From NCBI RefSeq assembly GCF_949628265.1, contig NC_088788.1:29498335-29562334 (forward strand): a DNA stretch of 64,000 nucleotides. The letters run 5' to 3'. The DNA is from Cloeon dipterum (lineage: Eukaryota; Arthropoda; Insecta; Ephemeroptera; Baetidae). This document shows, in pieces, positions 1-38,857 of this stretch. The number at the start of each line of letters is the position of its first letter. Position 1 is the stretch's first letter. The notes beneath the pieces were generated by a model. The model was given only the letters and a program-made list of their open reading frames with translations, was not told the origin of the DNA and searched no databases. The position numbers and the translations under genes are program-made.

Positions 1-181
1 CTTGTCTTATTACTATATGTCGATGCAGTTTGATGCTTTTGAAATGATTAAAAACTGTTATGAATTCGACACCGGAAGATGCTTAATTTCGTCTTATAAT
101 TTAACCCGAATACGTTGGATGGCCTCTCACTTAATGGAAACTGCAGTAATTTTTATCACGTGTACGCAAGTCACCAATGAG
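1..181 (+). CDS. Gr variable exon 1, 3' part only (cut by window edge)
   Basis: The window opens inside a variable Gr exon. Reading frame 2 encodes 60 residues that match the end of the exon at 940-1833 almost exactly (FDAFEMIKNCYEFDTGRC against FDAFEIIKNCYEFDAGRC) and ends TQVTNE before GTGAGT at 182. It covers the extracellular loop and the TM6 region of the receptor. The start lies upstream of base 1, so I cannot tell whether the exon is intact. It belongs to the same subfamily as the exons starting at 940, 2920 and 9640. Confidence 0.8.
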
Positions 182-939
182 GTGAGTTATCTAAATATAT
201 GTAATCAATGCAATCATTCCTTATTTTCCTTATTTTTTCCATACTTTATTTATAATACGGTGCGCGTGCTGATTTTTTTCCTTAGCATCTAGGCGACCCG
301 CGGAGGTTGCGTGCCTCCGAAAGGTACCCAGAGGGTGGATTACGGCGTCACAACCTTGAGAGAAAATTGCAACGCTGGGTATAAGGATAGCATTGTAAAT
401 TGTTTCAAGGTCAAACTAAAAACAGTGCCGTAATCTGCCCCCAAGTGCTGAAAAGAGGAAACCCGTGGGACCCATAGGGGCCCCGCAGTAACCCAGATTT
501 TAGTCGAATGTGCCGACTAGCCACATCTGAGCTAGGTTTAGCATGAAGATCATTGTGAGATTTTTAGAATTTCAAATCACGTGGTTTGGCCTGTGGTGGA
601 ATTTTGGGTTTTTTGATTCAAAAACTTTCAACTTCTGGCCGCGATTAGGAAATAAATCTAAATATTGAAACAAGAAAAATCGGTCATAGTTCTTTTAACG
701 CAACACAACCACTGCAATATTGATAACTGAACTTTTTACACGTCAAATGTGACATATTAATTTTCCTTTAATGGATATTATATTTAAAAAAAAAAACAAG
801 ATTGAGCTTTGAGATAGCATGTGAATTTATGAATCGAGCTTTTGCGTGTCTAACTCATTGTCATCATTCAATTGTGTAAGCTCAAAGAATAGGCCATGTT
901 GTATTAACTTGAAGTCAGTTCTTCAAGCAGCTAGAAGCA
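182..939 (+). other. Non-coding interval with promoter-like block before Gr exon 2
   Basis: There is no C-terminal receptor exon here. Bases 290-560 are GC-richer than their surroundings and look like an old unidentified insertion. From about 665 to 939 the sequence is clearly related to 2634-2919 and 9361-9639, directly upstream of the other same-family exons, so this block probably holds the promoter of exon 2. Confidence 0.5.
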
Positions 940-1833
940 ATGGATTTCTCACTTCAAAAATTTCTTATGCTCCCATTGTTGATTTTTTATGCATCTTGTA
1001 CAAATTACTATTCGGTAAAAATTAATACTGACAATGTTTCCTTCGAAAATTTAAAATCCTCACGGGTTGCTTTATCCGGTATTGTGTACCTACTGTTTGC
1101 TTTTGTTTTTACTTATAAAACTCAAAGCCAATTTCAACTCTTTGAAAAAGCAATTGACGCACCAAACATGATGCGGCTCAGCTTAAATATCATTTTCATA
1201 ATTGAATTAATCTATAGTTTAAAGATTGCTTTTCATTTTCACGAAATACCTAAGGACATAATTGATCGATTAATTTTATTCAAGAGATTATCTACTCACT
1301 GTCGAAAAAAATTTAAGATTAGCTTGAAAGATGTTGTCGTAACATACATTCCTTTAATAATTTCTCATTCGCTCTTTTACTATGGCATTATAGAACTAAT
1401 GATTGATGAGGATCCACTATACTTACTGACAACATCTTCATTACATCTGATAAGTTCGTCTTTCTTTGTATTAGCCATTGCGGTAATCCGACTAATTTTT
1501 TTTTCTCTTCGCTTTTCAAATAAGATAATTAGATATTTACTAACATCATGCTCAGACTTTAAAACAGTGGAACTTTGGAGGAGGCATCACTCTCTTCTAT
1601 TAAAATGTGCTGAAAATGCCGATTCGCTTTTCGAAATGCTGATTCTCTGCCACTTGGCTTATTACTATATGTCGATGCATTTTGATGCTTTTGAAATTAT
1701 TAAAAACTGTTATGAATTCGACGCCGGAAGATGTTTAATTTCCTCTTATAATTTAACTCGAATACGGTGGATGGCCTCTCACTTAATGGAAACTGCAGTA
1801 ATTTTTATCTCGTGTACGCAAGTCACCAATGAG
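940..1833 (+). CDS. Gr variable exon 2 (gustatory receptor N-terminal region, intact)
   Basis: A single uninterrupted exon of 298 codons codes the N-terminal four fifths of an insect gustatory receptor, a ligand-gated cation channel subunit of chemosensory membranes. Hydrophobic segments lie at about residues 43-62, 78-95, 131-151, 158-190, 228-250 and 276-292, consistent with six of the seven membrane helices; the seventh would come from the shared exons at 19577-19933. It starts at an ATG equivalent to the ATGs at 2920 and 9640. It ends QVTNE at a GTGAGT donor in phase 0. No C-terminal exon lies between it and the next copy. It is closest to the exon at 9640-10530. Receptor family is clear; the ligand is unknown. 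Confidence 0.85.
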
Positions 1834-2919
1834 GTGAGTGTTCTAAACATATGTAATCAATGCAATCATTTATTCTAATTACATCAGGATAAATTTTGGT
1901 GGCGAAAGATCAGATGTGATATAGGACTCCTCATTTACACGTCGGTTTTGGCAACGAATTTTTGAAAATATCTCTGAAACAGCCAAGTTATGCGGGTTTA
2001 AATTCTGGAAAAAAGTTTTTGTTACTCTCCCATATAAATAGCATTAAAAGCAAGAATTATTCGAGATATTCAACTTTCGCTCGGTATTTTTCGTTTTTTA
2101 TTCTTTTACTGTCACAAAATGGAATTATAAATTAAAAGAAATCGAGTCGGTGGGTCCTATTGAAAAATTAAAAAAAAAAAACTATCGATTTTAGAGCGAT
2201 TTACGACTCAGCCAGAAAGCGGAGGGAGGGTGAATTACGGTTTCAATTGTCTTATAAATCGACGGATTTAAAGTCAGAAAGAGGTCTTAAATTAATGGTC
2301 TTGCCGATCGCTACAACCTGATGACCTTTTTCATGGTACCGCACCCTGAGATCGGTCCCAGAGTAACTTTCGCGATTTTTCCAAAGCCGCGACTCCAACA
2401 TTTTTCGTTAAAAAACCTCTCACCAAACCTGAAGCACAAAAAGCACTTGTTTAGTTAGCATTAATATGTGTGTGCGCTCTTAAAATGTTCGAAAAAATGG
2501 TTTTTATTGTTGTAAAATTAAGCCTTATAATTAGCATTGCATGGATATTCATGAACGAACTATTATCAAAAAGAAAAATAAATAGGTAATTTTAGCTGGT
2601 ATACTCTGCACAACATGACACACACGACAGTTCTCGAAACAAGTAAAAATCGGCTATAGTTCTTTAAATGCAACGCAACCACTGAAATATTTTTATAACT
2701 GTACTTTTTGGCTTGTCAAATGTGACACACTAATTTTCCTCTAATGGGATATTAATGAGATTATATTCTAAAAAAAATAAAGATTGAGCTTTGAGATATC
2801 ATATAAATGAATGAATCGAGCTTTAAGTTTCTGACCCATTTCCACTACTCAAGTGTGTTAGCTCGAAGGGTAGCCCATGTTGTATCAACTTAAGACAGAG
2901 CTTCAAGCGAATATTAGTA
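1834..2919 (+). other. Non-coding interval between Gr exons 2 and 3
   Basis: I find no receptor C-terminal exon. Bases 2140-2420 have a different, more GC-balanced composition and may be a decayed insertion. Bases 2634-2919 repeat the upstream block seen before 940 and 9640 (shared features include 'gattgagctttgagat' and 'taggccatgttgtat'-like strings), so they are the likely promoter region of exon 3. Confidence 0.45.
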
Positions 2920-3798
2920 ATGTATTTCACGCTGCAAAACTTTCTTATGCCACCATTGTTGTTGCTTGATGCAACTTGCACAAATTACTATTCGGTAAAA
3001 ATTAACGCTGACGGTGATTCCGTTAAAAATTTAAAATCCTCACTGGCTGCTATATCCGGCATTGCTTTCCTCCTGGTAGCTTGTGTGTTTACTTATAAAA
3101 ATCAAAACCAATTTCATCTCTTTGAAACCAAAATTGACGCACCAAACATGATGCTTAACTATGATTTTCATAGTTGAATTCATTTATAGTTTAAAGATTG
3201 CTTATCAATTTCACAAAATGCCCAAAGACATAATTGATCAATTAATTTTATTCAAGAGACTTTTCTCACGGTCGAAAAAATTTAAGATTAGCTTAAAAGA
3301 TGTTGTCGTAACATACATTCCTTTAATAATTTCTCATTCGCTCTTTTTTACGGCATGATAGAAATACATTTTGAGGATCCACTATACTTACTGGCAGCAG
3401 CTTCATTACATCTGATAAGATCATCTTTTTTTGTATTAGCAATTGCGTTGATTCGAACAATTTTCATTTCCCTTCGCTATTCAAATAAGATTATCAGATT
3501 TTTATTAACAACATGCTCAGACTTTAAAACAGTGGAACTTTGGAGGAGGCATCACTCTCATGTGCTAAAATGTGCTGAAAATGCCGATTCGCTTTTCAAT
3601 ACGCTGATGCTCTGCCAATTGTATTATTACTATATGTCGATTCAGTTTGATGCGTTTGAAATTATAAAAAACTGTTACTATTGCTACGCTGGAAGATGCT
3701 TAAGTTCCTTTTATAATTTAACCTCAGTGCGCTGGATGACTTCTCACTTAATAAGCGCTGCAGTAATTTTTATATCGTGTACGTAAGTCACTAATGAG
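2920..3798 (+). pseudogene. Gr variable exon 3, broken (frameshifts and a stop)
   Basis: This is a relative of the exons at 940 and 9640, with start ATG, GTGAGT donor and upstream block all retained. Against the 891-bp exon at 9640 it has lost 12 bases. There is an 8-bp deletion near 3155, a 3-bp net loss near 3260-3275, and a 1-bp loss in the T-run near 3345; the 8- and 1-bp losses together put the tail back in the original frame. A CAA codon is also TAA at 3784-3786, five codons before the donor. The stop falls in TM6, so no joined receptor could be made. The splice site is intact, so it may still be transcribed. I describe the breaks only. Confidence 0.85.
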
Positions 3799-4765
3799 GT
3801 GAGTAATCTAAATATATGTAATCTAAGCAATTATTTCCACTAAAAAATAACTAGGTAAAATTTATACTATTATGTATACCTATAACGTTTTCAATGTGTG
3901 TAAAATTCCAACAAAGAAAATATTTCTGATACTTTGTTCATTTTAAAATAATTCACACATCATTCCAACATTGAAAAAAATCAGGTCCTGCTCGTTCTGG
4001 TGGTAATGGAAGGATTATTTAAACAAAAATCATATATCGAGGAAGAAGATTACACGATTTAGAAATCGTTGAATTTAGACTAAGAATATGGAAAATATCG
4101 TTATAACACTTCAGATTAGGAGAATCAGTGAATACACAATTCCTTATATCCTCAAATATTCATTTTTATTTTTATGGTTCTTGCATTTGATGTATTATTT
4201 ACTGTAAAAAATGACTTGTATCATGAAATATATACAATATAAGTTTAAAATCCGCAAAGGTTGAGTTTCTGGGACTTCTTAACAGATTTTCTAGTTAAAA
4301 AGGGTCATGTTTTAAGTAAAAAAATATATAATCATTATTGTTGGACCCTTGGCCAGAACTTACAATTACTTGTTTCCAGAGATTTTAGATCATCTTTAAT
4401 TTTTCCTTGCGTTGATCAATACATAAATTGTTTCACCATATTACAATCTCAATAATATTTATCAAATTAAAAGGTGGTCTCTTTCTCATAATCGAATACG
4501 AAAAGCAATAAATGAAAATATTGATATGTCAATGCGTCGTGTCAAACATGCCACACCTGACACTATCTCCCTTGAAACTAAATGTGTTATCCGCAGTCAA
4601 AATAGATAGAGAGTAACATAGTATATATAATTGCACGGTTTGAGCATGGTATAGCTAACTTATTCCTTTTTCGCATTTTCGATAGTTTGGTGGGGCGTAT
4701 ATGTGATGCTATCAGAGGAGACTCTAAATTTAGTAATGAGAAAATTTACTAAAGTTCTGTCAAGA
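3799..4765 (+). other. Non-coding interval before Gr exon 4, with TATA-like promoter
   Basis: From about 3975 the sequence matches the intervals at 5703 and 7471, marking the start of a roughly 1.75-kb tandem unit. Close to the exon there is an AT-rich TATA-like string (about 4620-4630, 'agtatatataattgcac'), suitably placed for transcription entering exon 4. No receptor C-terminal exon is present. Confidence 0.45.
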
Positions 4766-5656
4766 ATGCAATTTTCAATGCAAACATTTATTTTGCCAGC
4801 ATTACAGTTTCTACATTTATCTTACGGAAATGTTTCCCATGTTAATGCTAATGTTAAACGTGGTTTTGACTCATACTTTAAAATTGCTCGTATTTCATGG
4901 CTTGTTTTCTTCATATCGGCTTCATGTTTTGTGTATAATGTTCATCATAATTTGTTTCAACCATTCATTTCCCCAATGGATGCTCCAAGCATAATGCTTT
5001 ATTGTTTGAATATAATGATTTTTGTTGAATTTTGCTTCAATTTAAATACAACGTTTAATTTTCATGAACTACCTAAAAGTGTTGTCTATTGCTTGATTAT
5101 TTTTCAAAATTCATCTTTGCCGTGTGACAAAGCTTTAGAAATTACGATGAGAGATGTCGTCTGTACCTACTTTCCTTTAATTATTTCCCAGTCAATCTTT
5201 TACTTAGGAATTATAGACATGTTTTACAAAAAGCCTTTTTTCTTAATTTCTACATTTCCATTTTACCTGATAAGATTGCCCCTATTACTATTTTTGATTG
5301 CTTTGCTGCGATTAATTTTTTTATCACTACAACATTCAAATAAAAGCATTAAACTGAAGGCAACGAAAACAAACTTTAGGCACGAAACTGTTGACCTCTT
5401 GAGGTTGAATCATTCTCTTGTGTTAAAAAGTGCCGAAATTACCGATCAGCTATTCGGCACGTTGATTCTTTGCCACTTGTCCTATCACTTTATTTCGATA
5501 CAGTTTGATATTTTCGCTATTGTACACAACTTTTATGAATATTTCGCCGGAATAAGGGATACTATTTCTGATATTTCCGGCCGCCTTAGATGGATGGCTG
5601 CTCACTTCATTGAAACCGCAGCAATTTTGTACTCATGCATGCGAGTCACTTATGAG
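4766..5656 (+). CDS. Gr variable exon 4 (gustatory receptor N-terminal region, intact)
   Basis: This 297-codon exon is the first of the three-unit tandem array. I start it at the ATG of MQFSMQTF, which aligns with MDFSLQKF at 940 and 9640; a longer open frame runs upstream but is not supported by paralogues. The protein has the Gr pattern of about six hydrophobic segments, a conserved IISQSIFYLGIID helix, and a final CMRVTYE before GTGAGT. The phase-0 donor is compatible with the constant exon at 19577. The second half is nearly identical to the exon at 6534-7424. Receptor class is certain enough; ligand and expression are unknown. Confidence 0.85.
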
Positions 5657-6533
5657 GTGAGTGTATACATCCTTTTCCCCCTGGTTAAGATCCTGTTTTG
5701 AACTATGAAAAAATCACGTCCTGCTCCTTAAATTTAGGTGGTAATTGAACAATTATTTTAACAAAAAATGATATCAAGATACACACACGAATATTTAGAA
5801 AGCGATAAATTTAGACTATGAATTGAAAGAAAATATCGTTCTATGAACGTTTTCTTTACTACAACACTTCAGATAAGGAGAATCAGTAAATAACCTTTTT
5901 TATCTTCAAATAATCTTTTTGTATTTATTTTGGTTCTTGCTTTTGATACCATTTACTTTAGAATATAACTTAATATATCAAGAAATGTATGCAAATCTGT
6001 GTAAAATCCGCAAAAAAGGTTGAGTTTTGAGGGCTTCTTAACAGATTTTCTAGTTAATAAGCGACACATGTTTTAAGCAAAAAAAAACAATTATAATAAT
6101 TTTAATAATTGGTTGACCCCTGGCCAGAACTTTGTTGCTGCCAGAGATTTTAGATCATCTTTATTTTTTGCATGCGATGATCAATACGTACATTTTTTTG
6201 CCATATTACAGTCTAAATAAATAAATAATTATCAAATTAAAAAGTGGTCTCTCTATCACAATCCATTTAGAAAAGCAACAAATGAAAATATTGATATCTG
6301 AATGCGTCGTGTCAAAAATGCCAAACCTGATTCTATCTCTCTTAAAACTAATTGTATTATCCGCAGTCAAAATAGATAAAGAATAACATAATGTATATTA
6401 TAGCAAAGTTTGAGCATGGCACGGTTAACTTATTCCTTTTTTGCTTTTTCGTTAGTTTGGTTGGACGAATGTGATGCTATCGCAAGAGACTCTAAATTAA
6501 GTAATGAGAAATTTCCCAGAAGTTGTGTCAAGA

Positions 6534-7424
6534 ATGCAATTTTCAATGCAAACATTTTTTTTGCCAGCATTACAGTTTCTACATTTATCTTACGGAAATG
6601 TTTCACTTATGAATGTTACTGTTAAACGTGGTTTTGATTCATACTTTAAACTTGCTCGTATTTCTTGTCTTGTTTTCCTCATATCGGCTTCATGTTTTAT
6701 GTATAATGTTCATCATAATGTGTTTAAAAAATTCGTTTACCCAATGGATGCTCCAAGCATAATGCTTTATTGTTTGAATATAATGCTTTTTGTTGAATTT
6801 TGCTTCAATTTAAATACAGCGTATAATTTTCATAAACTGCCTAAATATGTTGTCTATTGCTTGATTATTTTTCAAAATTCATCATTGCCGTGTGACAAGG
6901 CTTTGGAGATTACGATGAGAGACGTCGCCTGTACCTACTTTCCTTTAATTATTTCCCAGTCGATCTTTTACTTAGGAATTATAGACATGTTTTACAAAAA
7001 GCCTTTTTTCTTAATTTCTACATTTCCATTTTACCTGATAAGATTGCCCGTATTTTTATTTTTGATTGCAATGCTGCGATTAATTTTTTTATCACTACAA
7101 CATTCAAATAAAAGCATTAAACTGAAGGCAACGAAAACAAACTTTAGGCACGAAACTGTTGACCTCTTGAGATTGAATCATTCTCTTGTGTTAAAAAGTG
7201 CCGAAATTTCCGATCAGCTATTCGGCACGTTGATTCTTTGCCACTTGTCCTATCACTTTATTTCGATACAGTTTGATATTTTCGCTATTGTACACAACTT
7301 TTATGAATATTTCGCCGGAATAAGGGATACTATTTCTGATATTTCCGGCCGCCTTAGATGGATGGCTGCTCACTTCATTGAAACCGCAGCAATTTTGTAC
7401 TCATGCATGCGAGTCACTTATGAG
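6534..7424 (+). CDS. Gr variable exon 5 (gustatory receptor N-terminal region, intact)
   Basis: This 297-codon exon is the second unit of the tandem array and the same length as the exon at 4766. It starts at the ATG of MQFSMQTFFLP and ends CMRVTYE at a GTGAGT donor, phase 0. The first half differs from exon 4 at many positions (for example HKLPKYVVY against HELPKSVVY). In the last 275 bases I count about two differences, which suggests a recent gene-conversion tract. The spacer before it (5657-6533) is a copy of the one before exon 4 and carries no C-terminal exon. Confidence 0.85.
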
Positions 7425-8277
7425 GTGAGTGAATACATCCTTTTCCCCCTGGTTAAGATCCTGTTTTGAACTATGAAAAAATCACGTCCTGCCCCTTTAA
7501 TTTTGGTGGTGATTGAACAATTATTTAAACAAAAAAATTATATATCAAGATATACATGATTACACGATCATTTAGAAAGCGATAAATTTTGACTAAGAAT
7601 TGAAGGAAAATATCGTTCTATGAACGTTTTCTTTACTACAACACTTCAGATAAGGAGAATCAGTAAATAACCTTTGTTATCTTCAAATATTCTGTTAGTA
7701 TTTTTTAGTTCTTACATTTAATAACATTTACTCTATGAAAATGACTTTAATCTTGAAATATAAACAATTCTGTGAGTAAAATCCGCAAAAAAGTAGAATT
7801 TCGGGGGCTTCATAACAGATTTGCTAGATAAAAAGGGATTTTTTTAACCCAAAATTAAAATAATTTTAATAATTATTGCTGGACCCCTGGCCAGAACTTT
7901 GTTGCTTCCAGAGATTTTGGATCATCTTTATTTTTTCCATGTATGATCAATACGTAAATAGTTTATCCATAGTACAGTCTAAATAATATTTATCAAATTA
8001 AAAAGTGGTCTCTTTATCATAATCGAATAAGAAAAGCAATAAATGAAAATATTGATATTTCAAAGCGTCGTGTCAAACATGACACTATCTCTCTTGAAAC
8101 TAATTGTATTATCCGCTGTCAAAATAGATATATAACATGTGTTATTGCACAGTTTGAGCATGGCCTGGTTAACTTATTCCTTTTTCCCTTTTTCATTAGT
8201 TTGGTGGGGCGAATGTTATGCTATCGCAAGAGACTCTAAATTAAGTAATGAGAAATTTCACAGAAGTTGTGTCGAGA

Positions 8278-9167
8278 ATGCAATTTTCAATGCAAACATA
8301 TTTTTTGCCAGCGTTACAGTTTCTACATTTTTATACGGAAATGTTTCACTTGCGAATGTTGATGTTAAACGTGGTTTTGATTCATACTTTAAACTTGCTC
8401 GTACTTCATGGCTTGTTTTCCTCATTTCGGCTTCATGTTTTATGTATAATGTTCATCATAATATGTTTCAACCATTCATTTCCCCAATGGATGCTCCAAG
8501 CATAATGCTTTATTGTTTGAATATAATGATGTTTGTTGAATTTTGCTTCAATTTAAATACAGCGTATAATTTTCATAAACTGCCTAAAAGTGTAGTTCAT
8601 TGCTTGATTATTTTTCAAAATTCATCTTTGCTGTGTGGCAAAACGTTAAAAATAACGATGAGAGATGTCGTCTGTACCTACTTGCCTTTGATTATTTCCC
8701 AGTCAATCTTATGCTATGGAATTATAGACGTGTTTTATGAAATGCCATTTTTCTTAATTTCTACATTTCCATTTTACATGATAAGGTTGCCCGTATTTTT
8801 ATTTTTGATTGTAATGCTGAGATTAATTTTTTTATCTCTGCAATATTCAAATAAAACCATTATATTGAAGGCAAAGAAAACAAACTTTAGGCACGAAACT
8901 GTTGACCTCTTGAGGTTGAATCATTCTCTTGTGTTAAAAAGTGCCGAAATTACCGATCAGCTTTTCGGCACGTTGATTCTTTGCCACTTGTCCTATCAAT
9001 TTGTTTCGATACAGTTTGACATTTTCGCGATTATACAAAACTTTTATGAATATTTCGCCGGAAAAAGGGATACTATTTCCGATATTTCCAGCAACATTAG
9101 GTGGATGACTGCTCACTTCATTGAAACCGCAGCAATTTTGTACTCATGCATGCAAATCACTTATGAG
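8278..9167 (+). pseudogene. Gr variable exon 6, one-base deletion near the N-terminus
   Basis: This is the third unit of the tandem array. The exon is 890 bp where its sisters are 891. The missing base lies near 8328-8334: the sisters read 'acatttatcttacgg' and this copy has one base fewer. The homologous start (MQFSMQTYFLP, ATG at 8278) therefore runs out of frame after about 18 codons. The remainder from YGNVSLANV onward is open to the donor after QITYE. An ATG-less or upstream-started frame extends back to 8139, but the same upstream frame in unit 2 is plainly the out-of-phase shadow of the coding sequence. Either the exon is newly dead, or it uses a non-homologous N-terminus, or this is an assembly error. 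Confidence 0.7.
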
Positions 9168-9639
9168 GTGAGTTAATACATCCTGATTCCCCTTGTTAAG
9201 TTCCTGTTTTGAAATATTATATTATTAGGAATTTTAATGGATGCACAATGTTATTTATGCCGTTTCGATTCCTTTAATTTTGAATGTTCTAAAAAAAGAA
9301 GTCAAATTTGTTTTTGTTAAAATAAAAACTTACAAAGCACATGAAATTCACAATATTTCTAGAAACAAGGTATACATCAGTTTATAGTTTTTTTTTAATG
9401 CAATACAACCACTGAAATATTTATAACTTAACTTATTGGCATGTCAAATGGGACACATTCATTTTCCTCTAATGGAGATTAAATTCTAAAAAAATAAAGA
9501 TCGAGCTTTGAGACAACATGTAATTGTATTGAATCGAAATTTGTGTGTCTGACTCATTGCCACCACTCAAGTGTGTAAGCTCAAAGAATAGGTCATGTTG
9601 TATTAACTTAAGTCATATTCCTTCAGGCGACTAGTAGCA

Positions 9640-10530
9640 ATGGATTTCACGCTGCAAAAATGTCTTATGCCGCCATTGTTGTTGATTGATGCAACCTTCA
9701 CAAATTACTATTCGGTAAAAATTAACACTGACGGTGTTTCCGTTGAAAATTTAAAATCCTCACGGGTTGCTTTATCCGGTATTGTTTACCTCCTGTTAGC
9801 TTTTGTGTATACTTATAAAAATCAAAGTCAATTTCATCTCTTTGAAAAAGCAATTGATGCACCAAACATGATGCTGCTCAGCTTAAATATAATTTTCATA
9901 ATTGAATTAATCTCTGATACAAGGATTGCGTACAAGTTTCACGAAACGCCTATAGACATAATTGATCGATTAATTTCATTCAATAGATTTTCTTCTCACT
10001 GTCGAAAAAAATTTAAGATTAGCTTAAAAGATGCTGTCGTAACATATATTCCTTTAATAATTTCTCATTCGCTCTTTTTTTACGGCATGATAGAAATAAT
10101 GTATGTAGAACCACTATACTTATTGACAAGAGCTTCATTACATCTGATAAGTTCGTCTTTCTTTGTATTAGCAATTGCGTTAATCCGACTAATTTTTCTC
10201 TCTCTTCGCTATTCAAATAACATAATCAGATATTTATTAACAAAATGTTCAAACTTTAAAACAGTGGAGCTTTGGAGGTTGCATCACTCTCTTCTATTAA
10301 AATGTGCAGAAAAAGCAGATGCGCTTTTCAATATGCTGATTCTCTGCCACTTGTCATATAACTATGTGTCGATTCAGTTTGATGCTTTTGAAATTATTAA
10401 AAACTGTTATGAATTCGACGCCGGAAGATGCTTAATTTCCTCTTATAATTTAACTCGAATACGGTGGATGGCCTCTCACTTAATGGAAACTGCAGTAATT
10501 TTTATCTCGTGTACGCAAGTCATCAATGAG
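9640..10530 (+). CDS. Gr variable exon 7 (gustatory receptor N-terminal region, intact)
   Basis: This 297-codon exon is of the same subfamily as those at 940 and 2920 but lies beyond the three-unit array. It starts MDFTLQKCLMPPLL and ends TQVINE at GTGAGT, phase 0. Hydrophobic segments match exon 2 one for one. Residues around 240-297 are nearly identical to exons 1 and 2 (CYEFDAGRCLISSYNLTRIR). The upstream block 9361-9639 repeats those before 940 and 2920. It would join the constant exon at 19577, about 9 kb away. Confidence 0.85.
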
Positions 10531-11145
10531 GTGAGTGATCTAAATATATGTAATCAATGCAATGATGTCCACTTATAAAATCTGGGAGATTCGTAGACAG
10601 GTTTTAATTTGTTTAAAATTCTATCAAAGAATGATTTTCGCCAATATTTACCAAAATGAGTGTTTCCATGTGAAAGTTTCAAAAATATTTCTCTGTTTTT
10701 TACTGTTTTGCATTACTAGCATTTTACATTGATTGGTCTCTTATCCATGTTTTATAATGAGAACGTGTAAAATTTATACACTCCCATGCCATGCTTTTTT
10801 CTCTGCTTAATTCAGTTATTTTAATCTGCATTCTACATCCTAAATTGATAAGTTCTCATGTATGTGCAATTCACCGTTGAGGTGAGTTCTCTCCCGACCA
10901 TTAATTCTTGCTTTTTTTTAATTATAATCTTTCATAGTGCAATACCTTAATGGACTAGTAATGATTTTCTTGTTTTGAATTATTACATTTATAATATGCC
11001 ACTCCTCCCGCCACTTGCTACACGTGTATTTATTAGCATAATAACACTTGAAAGCTTAAATGTTTCGTTAGTTTGACAGCTCTGCAAAATGCGTCCTAAA
11101 AGCGAGCTCACCACACTTCTTTGACTGCTCTTTAAACATCACGAA
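10531..11145 (+). other. Non-coding interval with a possible Gr exon relic
   Basis: No intact exon is present. At 10853-10879 a 27-base string reads LMYVQFTVE in the frame that ends in GAG before GTGAGT, resembling the ends of neighbouring Gr exons (SCMQITYE). The sequence upstream of it has stops. It may be the last remnant of a lost variable exon with its donor. Confidence 0.35.
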
Positions 11146-12018
11146 ATGGAGAGAAAGTCCATGTTTCTGTCTCTTTCTCGAATTGCCGTTTTACATTCGC
11201 AAATTGCGGGTACTTTTCCATTTCGAGTGGGAGCGAACGATATTTCAGAATGGTCGCGTTTAAAGATTGTCAGCATTATTCAGCTCACAGTTTTCATTGC
11301 AGGTACAATTTATGTAATGCTCCATAAGTTTTACAGACACCACACGCTAGGTGCAGTTGTCTCATTTACAACACTTCTTGGAGACTCGTGTCTTTGTTTA
11401 ACTAATTTGACTGTGTATCACCTCGCAATTTTCCAATCAAATGTCTTACTAGCCATCTTTAAAAAAATAATCATTTTGGAAAGAGAACGAAGCATAATTA
11501 TAAATGATTCGTTTCCGAAATATTACGTGCCCTTTATTAACATAACATACTTTTTACTCAGTGTAAGACAGCATTTTATAATTGAAAATTTTTCCTGGTT
11601 TCAATCAATTTTGGCGTACATGAAAGAGTTTTCCCTAATGGCTATTGAGTGTCAATACATCGTCATCACATTTTTTATTAAAAGTTCCTTCCTTCAAGTT
11701 AATAATCGGATTGAAATGTTAATAGTATCTGCTGAAAACCTTGAAAGAAAAATAAATGAAATTAGAGAAACCATTAGTTCTCTGCATATTACAGTAGATG
11801 ATATCAACAGACTGTACGGTCTTTGTTTGCTCATGTGCCTGCTTTCGCTGAACGTCTATTTAAATTGCGATTGTTTCTGGATCGTTAGCACTTTGTATTC
11901 AAAAATCGATTCCTTGGAAAAACTTGAAACCTTTTTATATTATGGAGTTTGTTGGACGTCATTTGATTTTATCCGTGTCTTGGCGTGTACGTGGATTTCG
12001 ACTAATACATCAAATGAG
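11146..12018 (+). CDS. Gr variable exon 8 (divergent, intact)
   Basis: This 291-codon exon starts MERKSMFLSLSR and ends WISTNTSNE at a GTAATA donor in phase 0. It is much more divergent from exons 1-7 than they are from each other, but it has the same length, the same placement of hydrophobic segments and the same phase-0 GAG end. Residues after about 200 (FLQVNNRIEML, then TVDDINRLYGLCLLMC) correspond to the TM5 region of Grs, where a helix follows the 'L...N...G' intracellular loop. It has no C-terminal exons of its own: the next 1.9 kb holds a retrotransposon fragment and AT-rich DNA. Confidence 0.8.
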
Positions 12019-12279
12019 GTAATACCAATCGATATAATATTGATGATTTTTTAGCTGTCTCAAAAACCATTGCCAATTTGATTTTCAATCCTCAATTTAA
12101 GCTTGTATTTGGTCGATTCATGGTACAATTGAAGTGCAGATTTCATCCATAAATATCTTACTCTTCCTACAACTTTTCAAAATTACTGGCTCTGGATTAT
12201 TAAATTTTGATTTAACAACTAGGCTATATTCAAAGTTCTCCACGAATCTCAAAACTAGTATGGTAATAATCTAGAGCAG

Positions 12280-12897
12280 CAGTTTTCGCCACGGCTAAAA
12301 TGACCTCCCTCTCAAAGTCATCTGTCAACACGGCCTTAAAGCTTTTTGACCTTGCAGTCGCGCCTATCGCGAGCTATGGGGTTCAGGTGATCTGGCCGTA
12401 CTTGACATTGAGCGATTTCGCAAAATTAGAATCAGTAAAGACGAGATTTTTAAAGAGAGCACTCGGCCTATCCAAATATACGAAATCGAGACTGTCTAAC
12501 AAACTGGCCGACACTAGCTTCTTTGTAGAAGATTTAGCTGCTAGATTTTCTCTTCCTCACACTGAGAATTATAGTAAATTAATTCAAAACCAGTGGTATA
12601 AGATTTTCCTGATTGAGCCGGGGTTTTTCGATACGCCCGCGATGGTCGACCAGAGTTGGAAAGCCGTGTGCTATTCAAATAGGCACACGTTAACACGGCA
12701 CGCTTGTCACGGCTTCCATTATCTTTTGTGTAAAGTAAAAGAATTCCACAGTGAAGCCCTTCCTAACTGTGTTTGTAAACTTTGTGATAAGAACATGGAC
12801 TTTTATCATTTCCTGAGCTGTGATAAAAATCAGATGAGTTTGACTCAAGCTGCAAAATAACCAGCTAAATGACTGATACAAATTATTATTATTATAA
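12280..12897 (+). mobile_element. Non-LTR retrotransposon 3' fragment (jockey/CR1-like)
   Basis: The open frame 12300-12860 (186 codons) resembles the region C-terminal to the reverse transcriptase of insect LINE elements. It has LAVAPIASYGVQVIWPYL, then KLESVKTRFLKRALGLSK, then a Cys/His knuckle CVCKLCDK...YHFLSC near the end. The RT catalytic domain and ORF1 are absent, so it is a 5'-truncated copy. The trinucleotide run 'attattattattat' at about 12880-12893 looks like its 3' tail. It lies in sense orientation inside the Gr locus, between variable exons 8 and 9, and would be intronic for transcripts from exons 1-8. Confidence 0.75.
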
Positions 12898-13931
12898 AAT
12901 CAGTTGTACACAACTTGTGTTAAATTAAGTGATTGATTGATTGTAATAATCTACTGTATGAGCTAATTAATATTTTTGATTCAAAGCGTATGATCAGTTT
13001 GTCAAAACACAATGTTGGGAGTGGAGTCGTTAAATCGTGTGCTCATCTCTCCAATTGCATGCATGCTACTTCTTGTTACTATATACCTATTTTGTTTTTA
13101 CAAAACAAAATGCACTGATGCATATTCATCAGTGCATAAACTGGTCAAATCTTGATATTAACCTTGATTCCACAAGCACATAACAATTTCAATTTTTTTT
13201 TTATTTGTGTTTATTACAATATATAAAAAAAATTCGAGTTGTGGGACCTTATTCCTCGCGCTTTACTCAATTTTGCTTTCATCAAATCCTTGGTAATCTT
13301 ACATTTGCTTAAAAGGTGCTTAAATACTCTAAATTAAGCGATTGAAAAACCAGATAAAAAGTTTTTAATAATGTGCACAAGGTAGAAGAAATCATGAGTA
13401 TTTATGATATAATTCAAACAGTTTACGGGCCTGTATGTGTATCTATCCCCACTATTAGAATATGCACTTTAAGGCATGAATGGATTTATACAATAATTTG
13501 ACAAATTTATACACATAGCCATTGTATCCATTTAAACGACCACGAAGTTAAAATATTTAAATATGAATCACCGAAGTCTACTCTCTGGAATGTTATCGAC
13601 GTAATAATTATATCGCTGGCATCAGTTCATATGGACTGAAGCTTAAAAAAGAGGTCCATTGAACTTTTCACTGTTGTGAAGCACCGCTAGAATATTATGT
13701 GCATCAAAATGTTTTGCGGCTCTAAATAATTGTAAGTAGATCATACTAAATATTACATGCAAAATAAAATGCTTCTTAGATGCTTTGAAATATATATTGA
13801 CGCAATAGTAAATGATTGATAGTAGATAGGTTGTATATAAATTAAGTAATTAATATTGATCTCTTCATGAAATTCATTTAGCTTAAGATGGAAACGTTGA
13901 CTATTATTGAGGAACGAAATAAACTTGCGTG
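12898..13931 (+). other. AT-rich interval between retrotransposon and Gr exon 9
   Basis: I see no gene. Two adjacent perfect inverted repeats lie at 13090-13136 (listed separately). The rest is AT-rich and would include the promoter of exon 9. Confidence 0.4.
13090..13136. repeat. Two back-to-back perfect hairpins
   Basis: The first has arms TTTTGTTTT (13090-13098) and AAAACAAAA (13102-13110). The second, directly adjoining, has arms TGCACTGATG (13111-13120) and CATCAGTGCA (13127-13136) with a 6-base loop. They may be the folded end of a small transposable element; no terminator role is expected in an animal genome. Confidence 0.6.
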
Positions 13932-14769
13932 ATGGAAGAGTATAACAACGCAATACAGGACTGGGCGTATTTCGGCATATTTTTCGCGAAAAGGGACCGA
14001 GAGCGCTCACTTTTAAAACCAATTTCCACTAAATACATGCGCGTTTTATCAGTTGCTCTTCACATCAACTCTTTGATTGGCGTTTCCTGTGTTTTCAATA
14101 AGTTTTTGGACGCTAGCGAACGAGAAGCGCAAATGCTGATTAGATTCGTAACTGACGTTAATTTTCATTTACTATCCTTTGTATGTACAATGTTTTTTAG
14201 AAATAATTATATCACTGTGACCACCATTGTAAACAAATGTCTAATTTTAGACAAAAAAACTAGTAATTTCCCTTCGGATTCTATTTTTATTCGCTTTTGT
14301 GACTTTGAGCGTTGTTTTCCTTGACATATACAGCTATCCCATATCAATATACACAGTCACAACGGTTGTTATAGATATATTTAGAAATATTCTTTTGGCC
14401 CAAATTTACTTGCTGGCAGTTTGGCTCAAGATTTGCGTCCATTCTGTTAACACAGGAATAGCTAAAATTGGTAAAACCGTGTCTGAAGTCCACTTAATTC
14501 GCAACTTTCACTCAAATGTAACGGATGTAATTGCGATGGTGGCGGATATGTATTCGTTCACTTTGCTTGTACTTATATATGATCACTTTTTTTACGCTCA
14601 ACTCGATGTGGCTTACATATGCTTCAAAATGTACGACTCTAATGTGGGAGCTCTAAGCTATGTGCCAATTGACAGAGAAGACGCAACAGTGCTGTACATT
14701 TTTTGGACCATGTTGGACGTTTTTGGTGTTATCACGATTATATACCTTGCATCAGACGTTGTAATGGAG
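13932..14769 (+). pseudogene. Gr variable exon 9, single frameshift
   Basis: The exon spans 838 bases (3n+1) from ATG (MEEYNNAIQDWAYFG) to a GAG codon at a GTATGG donor. The first part is open to about 14285 (IVNKCLILDKKTSNFPSDS) and the second part is open in another frame from about 14285 (FAFVTLSVVFLDIY) to DVVME. The switch falls at the T-run around 14282-14287, so one extra T explains it. Both halves look like normal Gr sequence with no other lesion. The exon is either very recently disabled, polymorphic, or carries a homopolymer sequencing error. Confidence 0.75.
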
Positions 14770-15408
14770 GTATGGTTAATTTAAATTGGATAAATTCATT
14801 GCAGACAATTTAACTAAAGTATGAAAATATTTTATTTCCTATTCCATAACTTCAGATTTTAAATCATTTTTATGGGTCTCTTGGTCAAAAATAAGGTGAC
14901 AAGTTGCAAGCATTTAATTACAAATACATATAAAGGGCGTCAAAAATTTAACCAGTCATGTCGGGAATGACCGCGTTTTTTTGTAATAATACTTTTTACA
15001 AATTTTTGATAACCTTTTGTGATTTTCTTTCATTCAACTTTAATTATTTTTTATTGCCTAGTTATAACATCTATCATTTTTTTAAAATCTTTTATCAAAC
15101 ATTTTTTTTTTGCTAATTTTAAAAGCTGAAACAGCTGAAAAAGTAAATGAATTCCTGTGTTAAATATGCACTTATTTAATTTGTTTTGGTATTAGTGTTG
15201 TTACATTCACAATGCTTATCCAGCCATCTTAGAAATTACAAACACGGCAAATATTATTTTATTGATTTTATAACGCATTCTGCTAACAATACAAAGACAT
15301 TTAATACATTATTTGAATATCAAATTTTTATCTGAACTTAATGCTCTATAAGCAATAAAGTAGCAGTTCCTTTTTCATTTCTGTTATGCAAGCAAACAGC
15401 TTGTGTCA
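14770..15408 (+). other. AT-rich interval before Gr exon 10
   Basis: No coding sequence is visible and no receptor C-terminal exon. It presumably carries the promoter of exon 10. Confidence 0.4.
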
Positions 15409-16248
15409 ATGGCAAAATTGACGACAAATCTTTCACTCGTGCTTGGTTTTTTACACTACACTGGCGCGTTAAATATAAAATTTGACGAAAAACGAAGGAT
15501 TTTCAAAAAATGTAGTGAATTCAAGTCGGCTCTTTTTTTAGCCACTTATATTGTTTTAGACATTCCATTTCTGCTGATGTGCTACGTGCGTATTTCAAAA
15601 CCTGGGCTAGATGGGTCAGATCTTGTACAGAGCATATCAGACATTTCCTACAATATTTGTGTCTTTCATGGAGCTTTTTTCATTTATTTTCAAAGAAATG
15701 AAGTGATCAAACTTTTTAACCAAGTCACATCCTTTCAACTGACTTTAGATATTTCTCGATTAACAATAGCAACATCCTTTTTCTACTTAACGCTGCTTTT
15801 CATTTTTAATTATTTTATGTACGCTCCCGAAAATTATTTAGCAATGTTTACCATTTCCATATCCGACGTACTCATTAAATCTGTGGCATTGCAAATTTTG
15901 ACGATATTCCATTTGTTCTTGCAAACTTTACGCTGGGTCAACTTTGAAGTTAAAAACGGTAAAATGCCAGTGGAAAAAATGCGACTTATGCACTCAAAAC
16001 AAATGCAGATATATGAAAAATTGCAAAACGTATACGGATTTATGGTTCTCAACTTGATATTTTATCATTGCCTTTACATTCAAACTGATCTTTATAGAGG
16101 CTCTTCAATGTTGTATGACATATTTATAAGTCGTGTGAAAGAATGGGGAGATGAGTATCTTCAAATAATATCTTATCTCGCGTGGATGTTTTCCGACTTG
16201 GTTGCAGTCGCAAGCATCACCATTTTATGCGCAACTATTGAAAACGAG
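15409..16248 (+). CDS. Gr variable exon 10 (intact)
   Basis: This 280-codon exon starts at the ATG of MAKLTTNLSLVLGFLHYTGAL and ends CATIENE at a GTAAAT donor in phase 0. The opening 'LGFLHYTGALNIKFDE' is shared in pattern with exons 11 (FLKFTGALLISVDE) and 12 (LFKWCGTLLIKFDK), placing the three in one older subfamily. Several hydrophobic segments and the loop before TM5 (LQNVYGFMVLNLIFYHCLYIQ) match the Gr fold. Only 161 bp separate its donor from the start of exon 11, too little for a private C-terminus. Confidence 0.85.
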
Positions 16249-16409
16249 GTAAATTTTAATATCGAACAAGGCTTATCGATTGAACACCCACTTAAATTAA
16301 TATTGATGATTTTACAGACCTTTTTGAGTGATTGGCTTCTTTCCTTGGTTGCTATATTGATCAGAGTTCATTTATAAAGTTGCAGCATTTCAAACAGAAT
16401 ATTTCCAGA

Positions 16410-17264
16410 ATGAACCATGTCTTAGTTTTCTTGAAATTCACGGGCGCATTACTTATATCTGTGGACGAGACTTCTAAGCAGTTTAAAGTTTGCAATCGCG
16501 CATTTCTGATATTTTCAGCGTCTATGTGTGTGACCTCGGATGCAAACTATATTTTTGAATCAGTGACGGGAATAATAAACAAGGCAGAAAATTTTAGCGG
16601 GGTTGATTTGATTCGAATGGTAGCTGATCTTTGTTACCATTTACAAATTTGGCACACTGCGCTTTTCATTTTTCGAAATATGCCAGATATAGCAATTTAT
16701 ATGCATATTATCGGTATAAATAACAAAACCAATTTGTGCAGTAAATTCGCATTATTTGCTTCAGTGTATTACCTTTTAGTCATATTCAATAACAGCTTGA
16801 GTTGGACATCTGCACATTTTTTTAAAAGACACATGCTGGGTACAGTATTATGTTTTGTGAATGACACTTTTAATTCCACAATGATGATTCTTATTTGTTT
16901 TCTACTAGACAGCTCAAAAAATGTGCTGAGGTTAACACACAATCAGTTGTTAAAAGTAAACAGCGCCGGGAGTCAACTAAAAGTTAAAATTGACGATTTC
17001 AGATTAAAAATCCGAAACACAATTAGAGTAATTGAACATTTAAACAGTAAAATCTCGATCTTACTTCTGACAATCATTTTGGGACGATGTTGCTACACAC
17101 AGATTGACATTTTCTATGCAATTTGCGGTTTACTTGAATCAATTTTTCAATTGCAACCTCAAACGATACCATCATTTACGGCGAAAGATTATCTATTTTG
17201 GGGCATCATTGACATGGCTTCAGTGTTTATGTTAATCATTTGCTGCTGCCAAGTCGAAGCTGAG
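16410..17264 (+). CDS. Gr variable exon 11 (intact)
   Basis: This 285-codon exon starts at the ATG of MNHVLVFLKFTGALLI; a longer open frame upstream lacks an ATG and lies in the intron of exon 10. It ends CCCQVEAE at GTAATA, phase 0. It has the Gr hydrophobic pattern and the TM5 segment LLTIILGRCCYTQIDIFYA. It is most similar to exons 10 and 12. The 5' flank available for a private promoter is only about 160 bp, so its promoter may overlap the intron of exon 10 transcripts. Confidence 0.85.
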
Positions 17265-17483
17265 GTAATAACTAGTCCTTTACATGATAATCGCTTGACC
17301 TGAAATTTGTCTGTCTCATAACTCACAGGACACACCACCATTTTCTGAATTGCCATAATTTAAGGTGAATTCTGATCGAATACATGAGTAAACATTACAA
17401 CATAATAATTATTATCAAACTGCGTCCAACGAGCTAAATGATTATTTCAGTGTTTTAGTATTTTAGTTTCGTTCTAGAGCATC

Positions 17484-18332
17484 ATGGATTCGGTCGGAAT
17501 GTTGTTTAAGTGGTGCGGAACTCTGTTGATAAAATTTGACAAGACCGATAAAACATTCAAACCGTGTTGCCCGCAACTCTTGATATTTTCGGCCACATTG
17601 TGTGTTTTAAGTGATTCAGAAATAACGGTTCACTCGTTGAAATCAAAATTCAAAGAGTGGCCTTTGCAAGGGGCAACTATCGTTCACTTATTTGGTGACG
17701 TGATGTACCACACTCAAATTTTAGTTACGGCAAATATGATTGTTCGGAGCAGTAGCCACGTGGCTGAATTTTTTAGTGCATTTGGATACCATAACAAACG
17801 TCGTCGAGAATTTGTTGGCTCGGTTTTTAAATCATACGTTTTTATTTACATGGGACTGATTATTTATTTCAACAGTTTCAGTTACAATGCATGTGACCTA
17901 GTTTGGTGCGGTTTTTTTGCTAACCTCATTTGCTTTTTTAACGATCTTTACAATTGCACTATGTTTTTACAAATCAACTATTTGATAATAACGCTGCGAA
18001 ATATGCTCGCAGACTGCAACAAAAGAATATTATGTATTAGCTCTCGTAAAAATGAAAGAGATATTAACAATATTCGGAATTTCAGAGCCAACATATTGTC
18101 GGCTCAGGAAAAATTTGATTCCACGTTTTCCTTTCTTATGCTGATTACTTTTTGTGAAAGGTGTAATTATGTGCAAATCAACATTTACGGCCTCCTGTGC
18201 AATTTATTTAGCCTTCACGCCGGGCATAGTGATGGTTTTGATTTCTCAATCGTTCAAACGTTTTTCTGGATGTCTCTGGATTTGTGCTCTGCAATCTCCA
18301 TGGTTACTTGCTGCGCCTTAGCCGAGTATGAG
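17484..18332 (+). CDS. Gr variable exon 12 (intact)
   Basis: This 283-codon exon starts MDSVGMLFKWCGTLLIKFDK and ends CCALAEYE at a GTATTC donor in phase 0. It shares with exon 11 the block 'LLIFSATLCVLSDSE' (exon 11: FLIFSASMCVTSDAN) and the TM5 block CERCNYVQINIYGLLC. It is intact throughout. The interval to the next start (18333-18595) carries no exon. Confidence 0.85.
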
Positions 18333-18595
18333 GTATTCACTATTGTGCAAATCCCGATGAAAACACAGGATTCGGTTAGGAAATGAACGTTATTATGTTT
18401 AAAATGCAATTACCATCGCCCACCCTCTCCCCCTTAGCACACAACAGTAATTAACGTTGCTAGAGGGAACCTCGTCAACTGTGCTATTAAAGGTTACAAT
18501 AATATTCATGAATATTGAAGTAGCGGTAACAAAGGCTCTTCATTTTAAAGCGCCGTGCAAGCAAAATTGCCACAGTCGCACAAAAGCCGGAAAGC

Positions 18596-19468
18596 ATGCA
18601 AGACCCATGTCGTTATCAGACTAGGAGTTTTTCCCTATACTTGAAAATTACTGGATCGTTTCTCGGGACGCTGGCAGACGATAACTTATATTATCCGTTC
18701 ACTGGGAGACAGTTAAATTTGCTAGGAATATTTTACATGGTTATCGGGTCACCGATGCTGCTGAAACTGTGTAAATCTATCATGGCTTTAACCCCTGGAA
18801 ATTCTCATGAAATAATAAGGGTTTCCTCTTTTCTATTCCACCATTTATTTTTATTGACTGCATGTCACGTAATATTCTGGAAAACTAATTCAACCACTCA
18901 AATTTTAAACAGTTTAGTCCGAATTCAGTCTTTTTTAAATACTGAAGTGGAATTTCAAGTACTTTCCTGTTCACTTTTCTCTTACATATTGTTGTGTTGT
19001 ATTACCGGATTCAGCTCTGTCAGTCAAGGTAGAATAACAATTCATGAATACATAGTTCTTGAAGTCAACGAGACAATTTCTACGTCATTTACATTCCTAA
19101 TTATTTTTTTCGTATTCTTCAAATTAAAACTCTTAAAAAGTCTCAATCAAAAGGTCATGATCATTGATCAAAATTCAGATGAGATCCAAGTTATGAAATT
19201 AATAGAAAGTAGAGCTCATATTGAAGAAACTTGGCAAATTTTTGAAGATGCGTTTAAATATTCGCTAATACTGTTCGTTTTTCACAAATATATGTTTGCA
19301 ATATATGATATTCGCTTACTTTCAGTGGCTATATTTACCTGCGTTTATGATAGTAAAGTTATAAATGCTAGCGTCCTATTCTCGATTTTTGTTAGTGTGA
19401 TCTGGATCCTTTTGAACTTGATTTTACTCATTGTAATTGTCCACCTTTGTGCAAATATCGAATTTGAG
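18596..19468 (+). CDS. Gr variable exon 13 (intact, nearest to constant exons)
   Basis: This 291-codon exon starts MQDPCRYQTRSFSLYLKITG and ends HLCANIEFE at a GTGAGG donor in phase 0. It lies only 108 bp from the constant exon at 19577, so this isoform is the simplest to predict: 18596-19468 joined to 19577-19645, 19710-19799 and 19856-19933 gives a 369-residue receptor. The N-terminal exon is divergent from the others. Hydrophobic segments cover about residues 40-60, 75-95, 120-145, 160-185, 220-245 and 260-285. Confidence 0.9.
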
Positions 19469-19576
19469 GTGAGGTTTTCATATGCTGAAGGATTTTGCTT
19501 ATAATATGTCCAAGGAATTTGAAGACTAGAAACATTTTGAATTTAACTTTTTAAAAAGGGTATTGGTTTGTTGCAG

Positions 19577-19933
19577 GCAAAGAAAACAGGACCGCTGCTT
19601 AGCAAAATTGCTAATTCCCTACCAGAGTCACCCACAAGGGAGTCGGTACGTGAGCAAAATGAGCATTATATGTTGACAAGATTTAACAGATAATATATAT
19701 CACAAACAGCTGCTATGGTTTGCGTCTGAAGTTTCGTCGAGGAAAGTCAAATTTACTGCTTGTGGGCTCTTTCCTATCAATTACGAGCTTCTCTTTGCCG
19801 TAAGAAAATAACCTTTTGTTTTGTTGATTTCAAAATAACATTAAGTTACAAACAGGCAGCAGGGTCCTGTGCAACCAACATGGCAATCCTTATGCAAGCG
19901 CACATCGTCACATTGAAGCAGAAAGAACAATGA
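19577..19933 (+). CDS. Shared C-terminal exons of the Gr locus (C1, C2, C3)
   Basis: There are three short phase-0 exons: C1 19577-19645 (23 codons, AKKTGPLLSKIANSL...), C2 19710-19799 (30 codons) and C3 19856-19933 (25 codons plus TGA). C2 carries the Gr signature around KFTACGLFPINYELLFA and C3 carries CATNMAILMQAH, a variant of the family's TYxxxxxQF motif. Together they form the seventh helix and the intracellular tail. Acceptors are TTGCAG, AAACAG and AACAG; donors are GTACGT and GTAAGA. The gene at 20614 has the same three exons with the same phases and near-equal sizes. Only one such set exists in 1-19933. Confidence 0.9.

Positions 19934-32285: not shown

Positions 32286-38857
<6,572 letters not shown>

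Follow-up and report, generated by a model that had tools for sequence, protein, structure and literature searches.

The window, a 64,000-nucleotide stretch of the genome of the mayfly Cloeon dipterum, opens with a row of long gustatory receptor (Gr) exons, raising the question of whether these are separate genes or alternative first exons that share one C-terminus. The preliminary description favored the latter. All 13 variable exons that it claimed are present in positions 1 to 19933, and its count of at least nine intact receptors plus one cut by the window edge is confirmed: nine are intact (N11, N13, N14, N16, N17, and N19 to N22), N10 is edge-cut but whole in the assembly, and N12, N15, and N18 are damaged. 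Extending the assembly leftward, as it had proposed, added nine more variable exons. The array thus consists of 22 long variable exons over 36.8 kb, with a putative common tail downstream and a left end outside the window at position -16840 (contig C3:29481494).

All units lie on the plus strand. N10 starts at -712, and its 3' end occupies 1..181, where it is followed by a donor, GAG/GTGAGT. The same donor closes N11 (940..1833, 298 aa). The other intact variable first exons of the window are N13 (4766..5656, 297 aa), N14 (6534..7424, 297 aa, 92% identical to N13), N16 (9640..10530, 297 aa), N17 (11146..12018, 291 aa, donor GAG/GTAATA), N19 (15409..16248, 280 aa), N20 (16410..17264, 285 aa), N21 (17484..18332, 283 aa), and N22 (18596..19468, 291 aa), which adjoins the common tail. 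N12 (2920..3784) is a degenerate copy of the N9/N10/N11/N16 type with frame shifts, six stops, and no Glu/GT donor that we could find. N15 (8355..9167), of the N13/N14 type, has lost its frame in the first ~26 profile positions and retains its donor; it may still encode a protein with an altered N-terminus from an open frame beginning at 8136. N18 (13932..14769) is split into two overlapping frames (13923-14321 and 14251-14781) and also retains its donor, GAG/GTATGG. Across the full array, 19 of 22 units appear intact. Eighteen are open over 280-310 codons with a start codon and a Glu/GT donor; the 19th, N2, is counted as intact only if a predicted intron, removed for the count, is real. Open frames of at least 280 aa number 19 on the plus strand of the array and none on the minus strand, and 100 first-order Markov simulations produced none on either.

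The exon ends are conserved. Each long exon had been described as ending in Glu with a GT donor in phase 0, which holds for 21 of the 22 units and fails for N12. A purine occupies +3 in all 21 remaining array donors. Together with the donor of a neighboring gene, these agree with the donor consensus at 6.9 of 9 positions on average, versus 4.2 for all GTs in the region.

Downstream of N22 lie three short exons: C1 (19577..19645, 23 codons), C2 (19710..19799, 30 codons), and C3 (19856..19933, 25 codons at 19856-19930 plus TGA). Their 23+30+25 codons give the 78 C-terminal residues that the preliminary description took to be identical in all products. It had also claimed that 19577-19933 is the only C-terminal set, and neither tblastn, including the proposed search of 1-19500, nor profiles of C2 and C3 found a second tail in the array. 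When six C exons were queried by tblastn against the sequence between a point 40 kb left of the window and 19576, no other entry among the nine top matches listed for each query fell below E 0.24. On both strands of the array, the profiles returned only a 10-residue match (E 0.66) within N15. The next tail set to the right (21550-21899) belongs to a separate, complete Gr gene outside the array (20614..21899, plus strand), which has a long exon at 20614-21495 with a weak donor, GAG/GTTGTC, and its own three C exons at 21550-21621, 21670-21759, and 21810-21899. This gene serves as the nearest control: its C2 and C3 were recovered at E 1.9e-9 and 3e-7, and its C1 at E 1.5, so that the searches with C2 and C3 are sensitive and the one with C1, an exon too short for reliable detection, is not. 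The same profiles, applied to an ordinary Gr array located on contig C4, recover 11 tails (C2 exons). For nine of these, a Gr long exon or a fragment of one lies no more than about 1 kb upstream; two have no detected long exon close upstream. At contig C3:5.55 Mb, two tails were found, one of them likewise without a detected long exon close upstream. Tails of the C5 cluster were barely detected by the C2/C3 profiles.

Family membership was assessed with Pfam and with structures. In a genome scan with the 7tm_7 model (PF08395), stretches of exon C2, N5, and N17 passed the curated cut-off; among the 22 variable exons the family model flags two. It matches three of 17 long exons at E up to 0.1, and two stray Pfam families match one row each of the same 17; the remaining long exons have diverged too far for the 7tm_7 model. 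When a profile of the 17 long exons was compared with 177,635 PDB sequences, the three matches at E up to 1 were all Grs. The variable exons and the tail, searched separately, give weak matches to fruit-fly Gr43a that are contiguous at residues 354/355: the long-exon profile aligns to 270-354 (E 0.0065), and the tail, for which both matches at E up to 10 are Gr43a, aligns to 357-422 (E 0.18), with tail residue 3 at 357. In a hydropathy average over 15 rows, with fragments merged by eye, the variable part shows seven peaks, of which the first is short and weak, and the tail shows one. TM7 of Grs carries a TYhhhhhQF-type motif, and exon C3 reads TNMAILMQA where it is expected. The genome has been reported as 180 Mb with 64 Grs (PMC7250882, as given in that account). 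Elsewhere in it we noted an Orco-like exon, and profile searches gave five OR matches and one OBP match. No (TTAGG)6 or (TCAGG)6 was found in the genome.

The variable exons differ greatly in age. Outside the N9-N16 relatives and N20/N21, pairs are 10-24% identical. The recent copies are under moderate constraint, with NG86 dN/dS of 0.36-0.63 and YN00 values up to 0.67. Bootstrapping of the four pairs tested put dN below dS in 97% or more of replicates; for N13/N14 the dN-dS interval touches zero. Copied units take roughly 230 bp or more of upstream DNA along, and the copied blocks of recent exons end 25-51 bp past the donor, indicating that tails were not duplicated with them. A tree built from 19 exons of the array and 12 others, which omits N12, N15, N18, and short control matches, does not recover the array as one clade and has long branches: N19-N22 group with ordinary genes and N1-N17 fall on the opposite side (support 81/88). 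The array exons may nevertheless be of one origin.

Taken together, the structure, the intact and constrained exons, their conserved donors, and the controls within the genome support alternative first exons with a common C-terminus, as far as sequence can. We put at roughly 85% the probability that this is one complex Gr gene in which each first exon has its own promoter. Each long exon would encode the receptor to about the end of TM6 and, being a first exon, would not require a 3' splice site. Splicing would join the donor of the transcribed exon in cis to the C1 acceptor at 19577 and remove any intervening long exons with the intron. S7 is the pore-lining helix in Gr/OR structures; by analogy with these, the C1-C2-C3 tail would supply S7, and with it the pore, along with the C-terminus. 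If each intact exon is expressed and used as we infer, the outcome would be 19 predicted receptors with differing ligand-binding parts and the same last 78 residues. New exons would arise by tandem duplication of a block that comprises the exon, its donor, and no less than about 230 bp of DNA in front of it.

The tail could be common while the long exons act as mutually exclusive second exons and not as first exons with their own promoters, many of them depending on one or a few non-coding exons and promoters farther upstream. Acceptor-like tracts do occur in the 150 bp before the ATG of N8, N13, and N14, and core-promoter motifs are not prominent: in the 120 bp preceding each of 15 representative exons, the neighbor's included, we saw no clear enrichment of TCAGT and its variants (TCAGT in 3 of 15, 0.12 expected per exon) or of TATA (1 of 15, 0.13 expected per exon). 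In the same 15, acceptor-like sites have a mean best score of 9.2 against a background of 8.5, a score that cannot discriminate because the array's own acceptors reach 8.0, 6.6, and 3.6, those of C2 and C3 being below background. It is because this test lacks power that the arrangement was considered at all. Against it, upstream DNA travels with copied units and Gr28b has separate promoters, and we judge it quite unlikely. CACGTG was seen in the 90 bp preceding N1, N3, and N5, and also elsewhere, with 12 sites in the joined 66 kb.

Very unlikely, in our estimate, is that only N22, perhaps with a few near exons, makes a receptor and that the rest are decaying 5'-partial tandem duplicates without tails. 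Three units are indeed damaged and constraint on recent copies is only moderate, but decay is hard to reconcile with 18 exons open over their full length at such low identity, with the invariant +3 purine, or with dN below dS in the tested pairs. An ordinary tandem array whose private C-terminal exons lie in the gaps, too diverged for detection, would draw on the divergence of Gr tails, as in the C5 cluster, and on the shortness of C1. Yet the profiles recover the tails on C4, at contig C3:5.55 Mb, and of the neighbor; the gaps N7-N8, N19-N20, N20-N21, and N21-N22 are only 127-263 bp; copied blocks stop just past the donor; and the array sequence contains no Ns. This makes private tails highly improbable. 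Finally, the variable exons could be translated through the donor as truncated proteins, given that an in-frame stop follows 2-42 residues past each of the 21 array donors. The read-through residues, however, vary among exon types and hold no S7 segment, and well-kept donors would be purposeless, so we give this almost no credence.

Alternative first exons with a common C-terminus are an already described architecture, and the reference to Drosophila Gr28b and Gr39a is borne out by the accounts cited here. Gr39a has the same anatomy, with large exons and three small common exons encoding TM7 and the C-terminus, and its exons duplicate, degrade, and disappear; D. melanogaster has four large exons and other species have further copies of exon A, compared with the 22 units of this array (PMC2204066). 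In Gr28b, unique first exons with distinct promoters are spliced to common C-terminal exons, with five forms and promoters and two common exons, compared with 22 units, three common exons, and inferred promoters in Cloeon (PMC10273160). BgerGr60 (Gr60a-m) of the cockroach Blattella joins long first exons to three common short final exons, as here, and yields 13 forms from one gene; Anoplophora AglaGr99 yields 17 and Leptinotarsa Gr48 yields 13 (PMC6175461, PMC6720082), all fewer than the 19 predicted here. TcasGr214 of Tribolium, a beetle like Anoplophora, is described as one gene with 30 splice variants, more than here (PMC6720082). Accordingly, of the suggestion that this is an alternatively spliced locus of notable copy number, the architecture is supported from sequence and the number is high but below that of TcasGr214. 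The array is a large new example, among the larger loci named in these sources, and no record.

It is conceivable, though rather unlikely, that the locus works as a selection device in which each taste neuron uses one of 22 promoters, read-through from a distal one silencing those nearer, and possibly forms mixed channels. If so, co-occurring subunits with a common pore helix could form such channels, and ligand parts that are mostly 10-24% identical would be interchangeable on a fixed gate. Because recent copies, ancient lineages, and damaged copies occur together and an ordinary sister gene adjoins them, the locus is a good place for studying array growth. It also illustrates how such loci are undercounted, as the small number of variable exons flagged by the Pfam model indicates. 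For the Gr family, 19 natural ligand-binding parts on a constant tail would make it possible to ask directly whether ligand recognition can be separated from the pore.

The 22 long variable exons (units) of the gustatory-receptor (Gr) array, N1 to N22, lie on the forward strand of contig C3 of the 190-Mb assembly; positions are window coordinates, negative to the left, and the window itself covers 29498335–29562334 of that contig. They were first seen as a row of stop-to-stop frames and then bounded by start codon and donor. The preliminary description had suggested counting further exons leftward, and extension in that direction recovered N1 to N9 and the start of N10. Eighteen units are fully open over 280–310 codons, with a start codon and a final Glu codon followed by a phase-0 GT: N1 (-16840 to -15932), N3 (-13329 to -12451), N4 (-10459 to -9551), N5 (-8596 to -7679), N6 (-6748 to -5876), N7 (-4755 to -3826), N8 (-3698 to -2823), N9 (-2340 to -1450), N10 (-712 to 181), N11 (940–1833), N13 (4766–5656), N14 (6534–7424), N16 (9640–10530), N17 (11146–12018), N19 (15409–16248), N20 (16410–17264), N21 (17484–18332) and N22 (18596–19468). 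Six stops interrupt the degenerate N12 (2920–3784), the frame of N15 is lost over its first ~26 profile positions, and N18 is split across two frames. N2 (-15208 to -14118; 4792–5882 of L010, a stretch left of the window) opens, as 309 codons, only once a 164-bp GT-AG intron is taken out. Three of 45 GT-AG pairs tried open it, all with the same donor, and the intron is therefore a prediction, seemingly gained by an otherwise single long exon. With N2 so counted, 19 of the 22 units look intact, and the Glu|GT donor is kept in 21. Frames of at least 280 aa number 19 on the forward strand of the array (N15 counted, N2 not) and none on the reverse, and none arose in 100 first-order Markov simulations. 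No long exon was found between -40000 and -16840, so the array is bounded; counted from N1 through the tail's stop codon, it spans 36,774 bp. Farther left, at about -35.3 to -34.7 kb (L012:4749-5309), lies a reverse-strand exon of Glycosyl hydrolase family 18 (chitinase-like; Pfam E 1.5e-11). A reverse-strand stretch of open frames occupies 37813–41184; we take 37813–38301 to resemble the FHA part of a FoxK protein and a part further on to resemble a ZU5/death-domain protein.

The shared tail consists of three phase-0 exons on the forward strand, C1 (19577–19645), C2 (19710–19799) and C3 (19856–19930 plus TGA), encoding 78 residues. A separate Gr gene to the right, the neighbour (20614–21899), has its own tail, with identities to the array's of 67% (C2) and 58% (C3). 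With the tail exons of both loci as separate queries, tblastn against -40000 to 19576 gave nothing better than E 0.24 among the nine best matches per query, that match falling within N1. When both strands were scanned with iterated profiles of C2 and C3, the sole match was 10 residues long (C2), at 8678 within N15 (E 0.66). The region is free of Ns. The earlier claim that no second tail set exists left of 19577 thus held in these searches, that for C1 being weak, as the neighbour's C1 was recovered only at E 1.5.

The array tail has 41 genome-wide matches with E no higher than 10. In an array at 11.435–11.458 Mb on contig C4, 11 C2 exons were detected: 9 follow a long exon or fragment by no more than ~1 kb, two lack one at the cut-off applied, and a tail adjoins every long exon detected. 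One tail at 5.55 Mb on contig C3 has an adjoining long exon and the other none within 1 kb; a contig C5 cluster has ten TY/SY...Q tails, counted by eye among pattern matches that include chance ones; and at 13.11 Mb on contig C3 three long exons stand against two matches to C2 and one to C3. In the Gr clusters seen, private tails are thus the norm, with exceptions, and the tail search detects them. The 13.11-Mb locus (13109317–13114552) is possibly a small second case, one exon using its neighbour's tail. Within C3:5550294-5560392, the lone tail (5551611–5551812) lies 7.8 kb from a long exon (5559583) that has a C1-like match alongside, suggesting a split gene or degenerate copy. Equal-scoring tail pairs ~52 kb apart in C4:5529360-5584754 (5529360/5581671 and 5532314/5584629) probably represent a segmental or an assembly duplicate. 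An Orco-like exon marks the genome as an insect's; 50 residues of it match eight PDB sequences (best seven E < 1e-23).

A long-exon profile of 17 rows (16 array exons and the neighbour; N2, N4, N10, N12, N15 and N18 excluded) matched three of 177,635 PDB sequences with E no higher than 1. All three are gustatory receptors, and the match to Gr43a stops at residue 354 (E 0.0065). With the tail alone, two sequences matched at an E limit of 10; both are Gr43a (E 0.18), and the tail's third residue aligns with position 357. Judged from these weak matches to the same protein, abutting at the splice junction, the variable exons and tail are two halves of one receptor. The TM7 motif position falls in the tail, whose S7 presumably lines the pore, as in Gr/OR structures.

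A first exon would require a promoter and a donor and no acceptor, so whichever long exon a transcript starts at, its donor would be spliced to C1. A less probable alternative is that the long exons share one upstream start, in keeping with the acceptor-like tracts that precede N8, N13 and N14 and with the lack of core-promoter motif enrichment upstream of the exons. The acceptor score has no discriminating power, and upstream DNA was copied along with the exons. A separate promoter for each long exon, our preferred reading, is therefore suggested by this co-copied DNA and by analogy with Gr28b. CACGTG E-boxes at -16858, -13412 and -8665 precede the N1, N3 and N5 start codons by 18, 83 and 69 bp, and may be chance.

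N9, N10, N11 and N16 are 81–86% identical and N13–N15 84–92%, and the two groups are 39–48% alike; N20 and N21 share 29%, and remaining pairs in the matrix, which omits N2, 10–24%. Blocks shared by recent copies reach back 228–301 bp from the start codon among N9, N10, N11 and N16 and at least 664 bp among N13–N15, ending 25–51 bp past a donor; two longer blocks cover two units each. Genome-wide at E up to 0.01, N16 has eight further matches to seven units and N20 two, all within the array. New exons thus arise by duplicating locally in tandem, with some decaying. NG86 dN/dS is 0.36–0.63 within the first group (six pairs), 0.51 between N13 and N14, and 0.41–0.48 for N15 with either; YN00 gives 0.41–0.67 for recent copies. 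When four pairs were bootstrapped, dN was at least as high as dS in 0, 1.5, 3 and 0% of resamples, and the N13/N14 dN-dS interval touches zero. A forward-strand 196-aa frame inside the array (12270–12860) resembles, by eye, the C-terminal portion of a polyprotein from a non-LTR retrotransposon; it matched nothing in Pfam at E up to 0.001.

Drosophila Gr39a and Gr28b are described with the same anatomy, as is Blattella, where up to 13 forms share three final exons; beetle loci of this kind are given 13, 17 and 30 forms. Compared with the open-licence literature searched, the Cloeon array is a new, large case of a known gene architecture.
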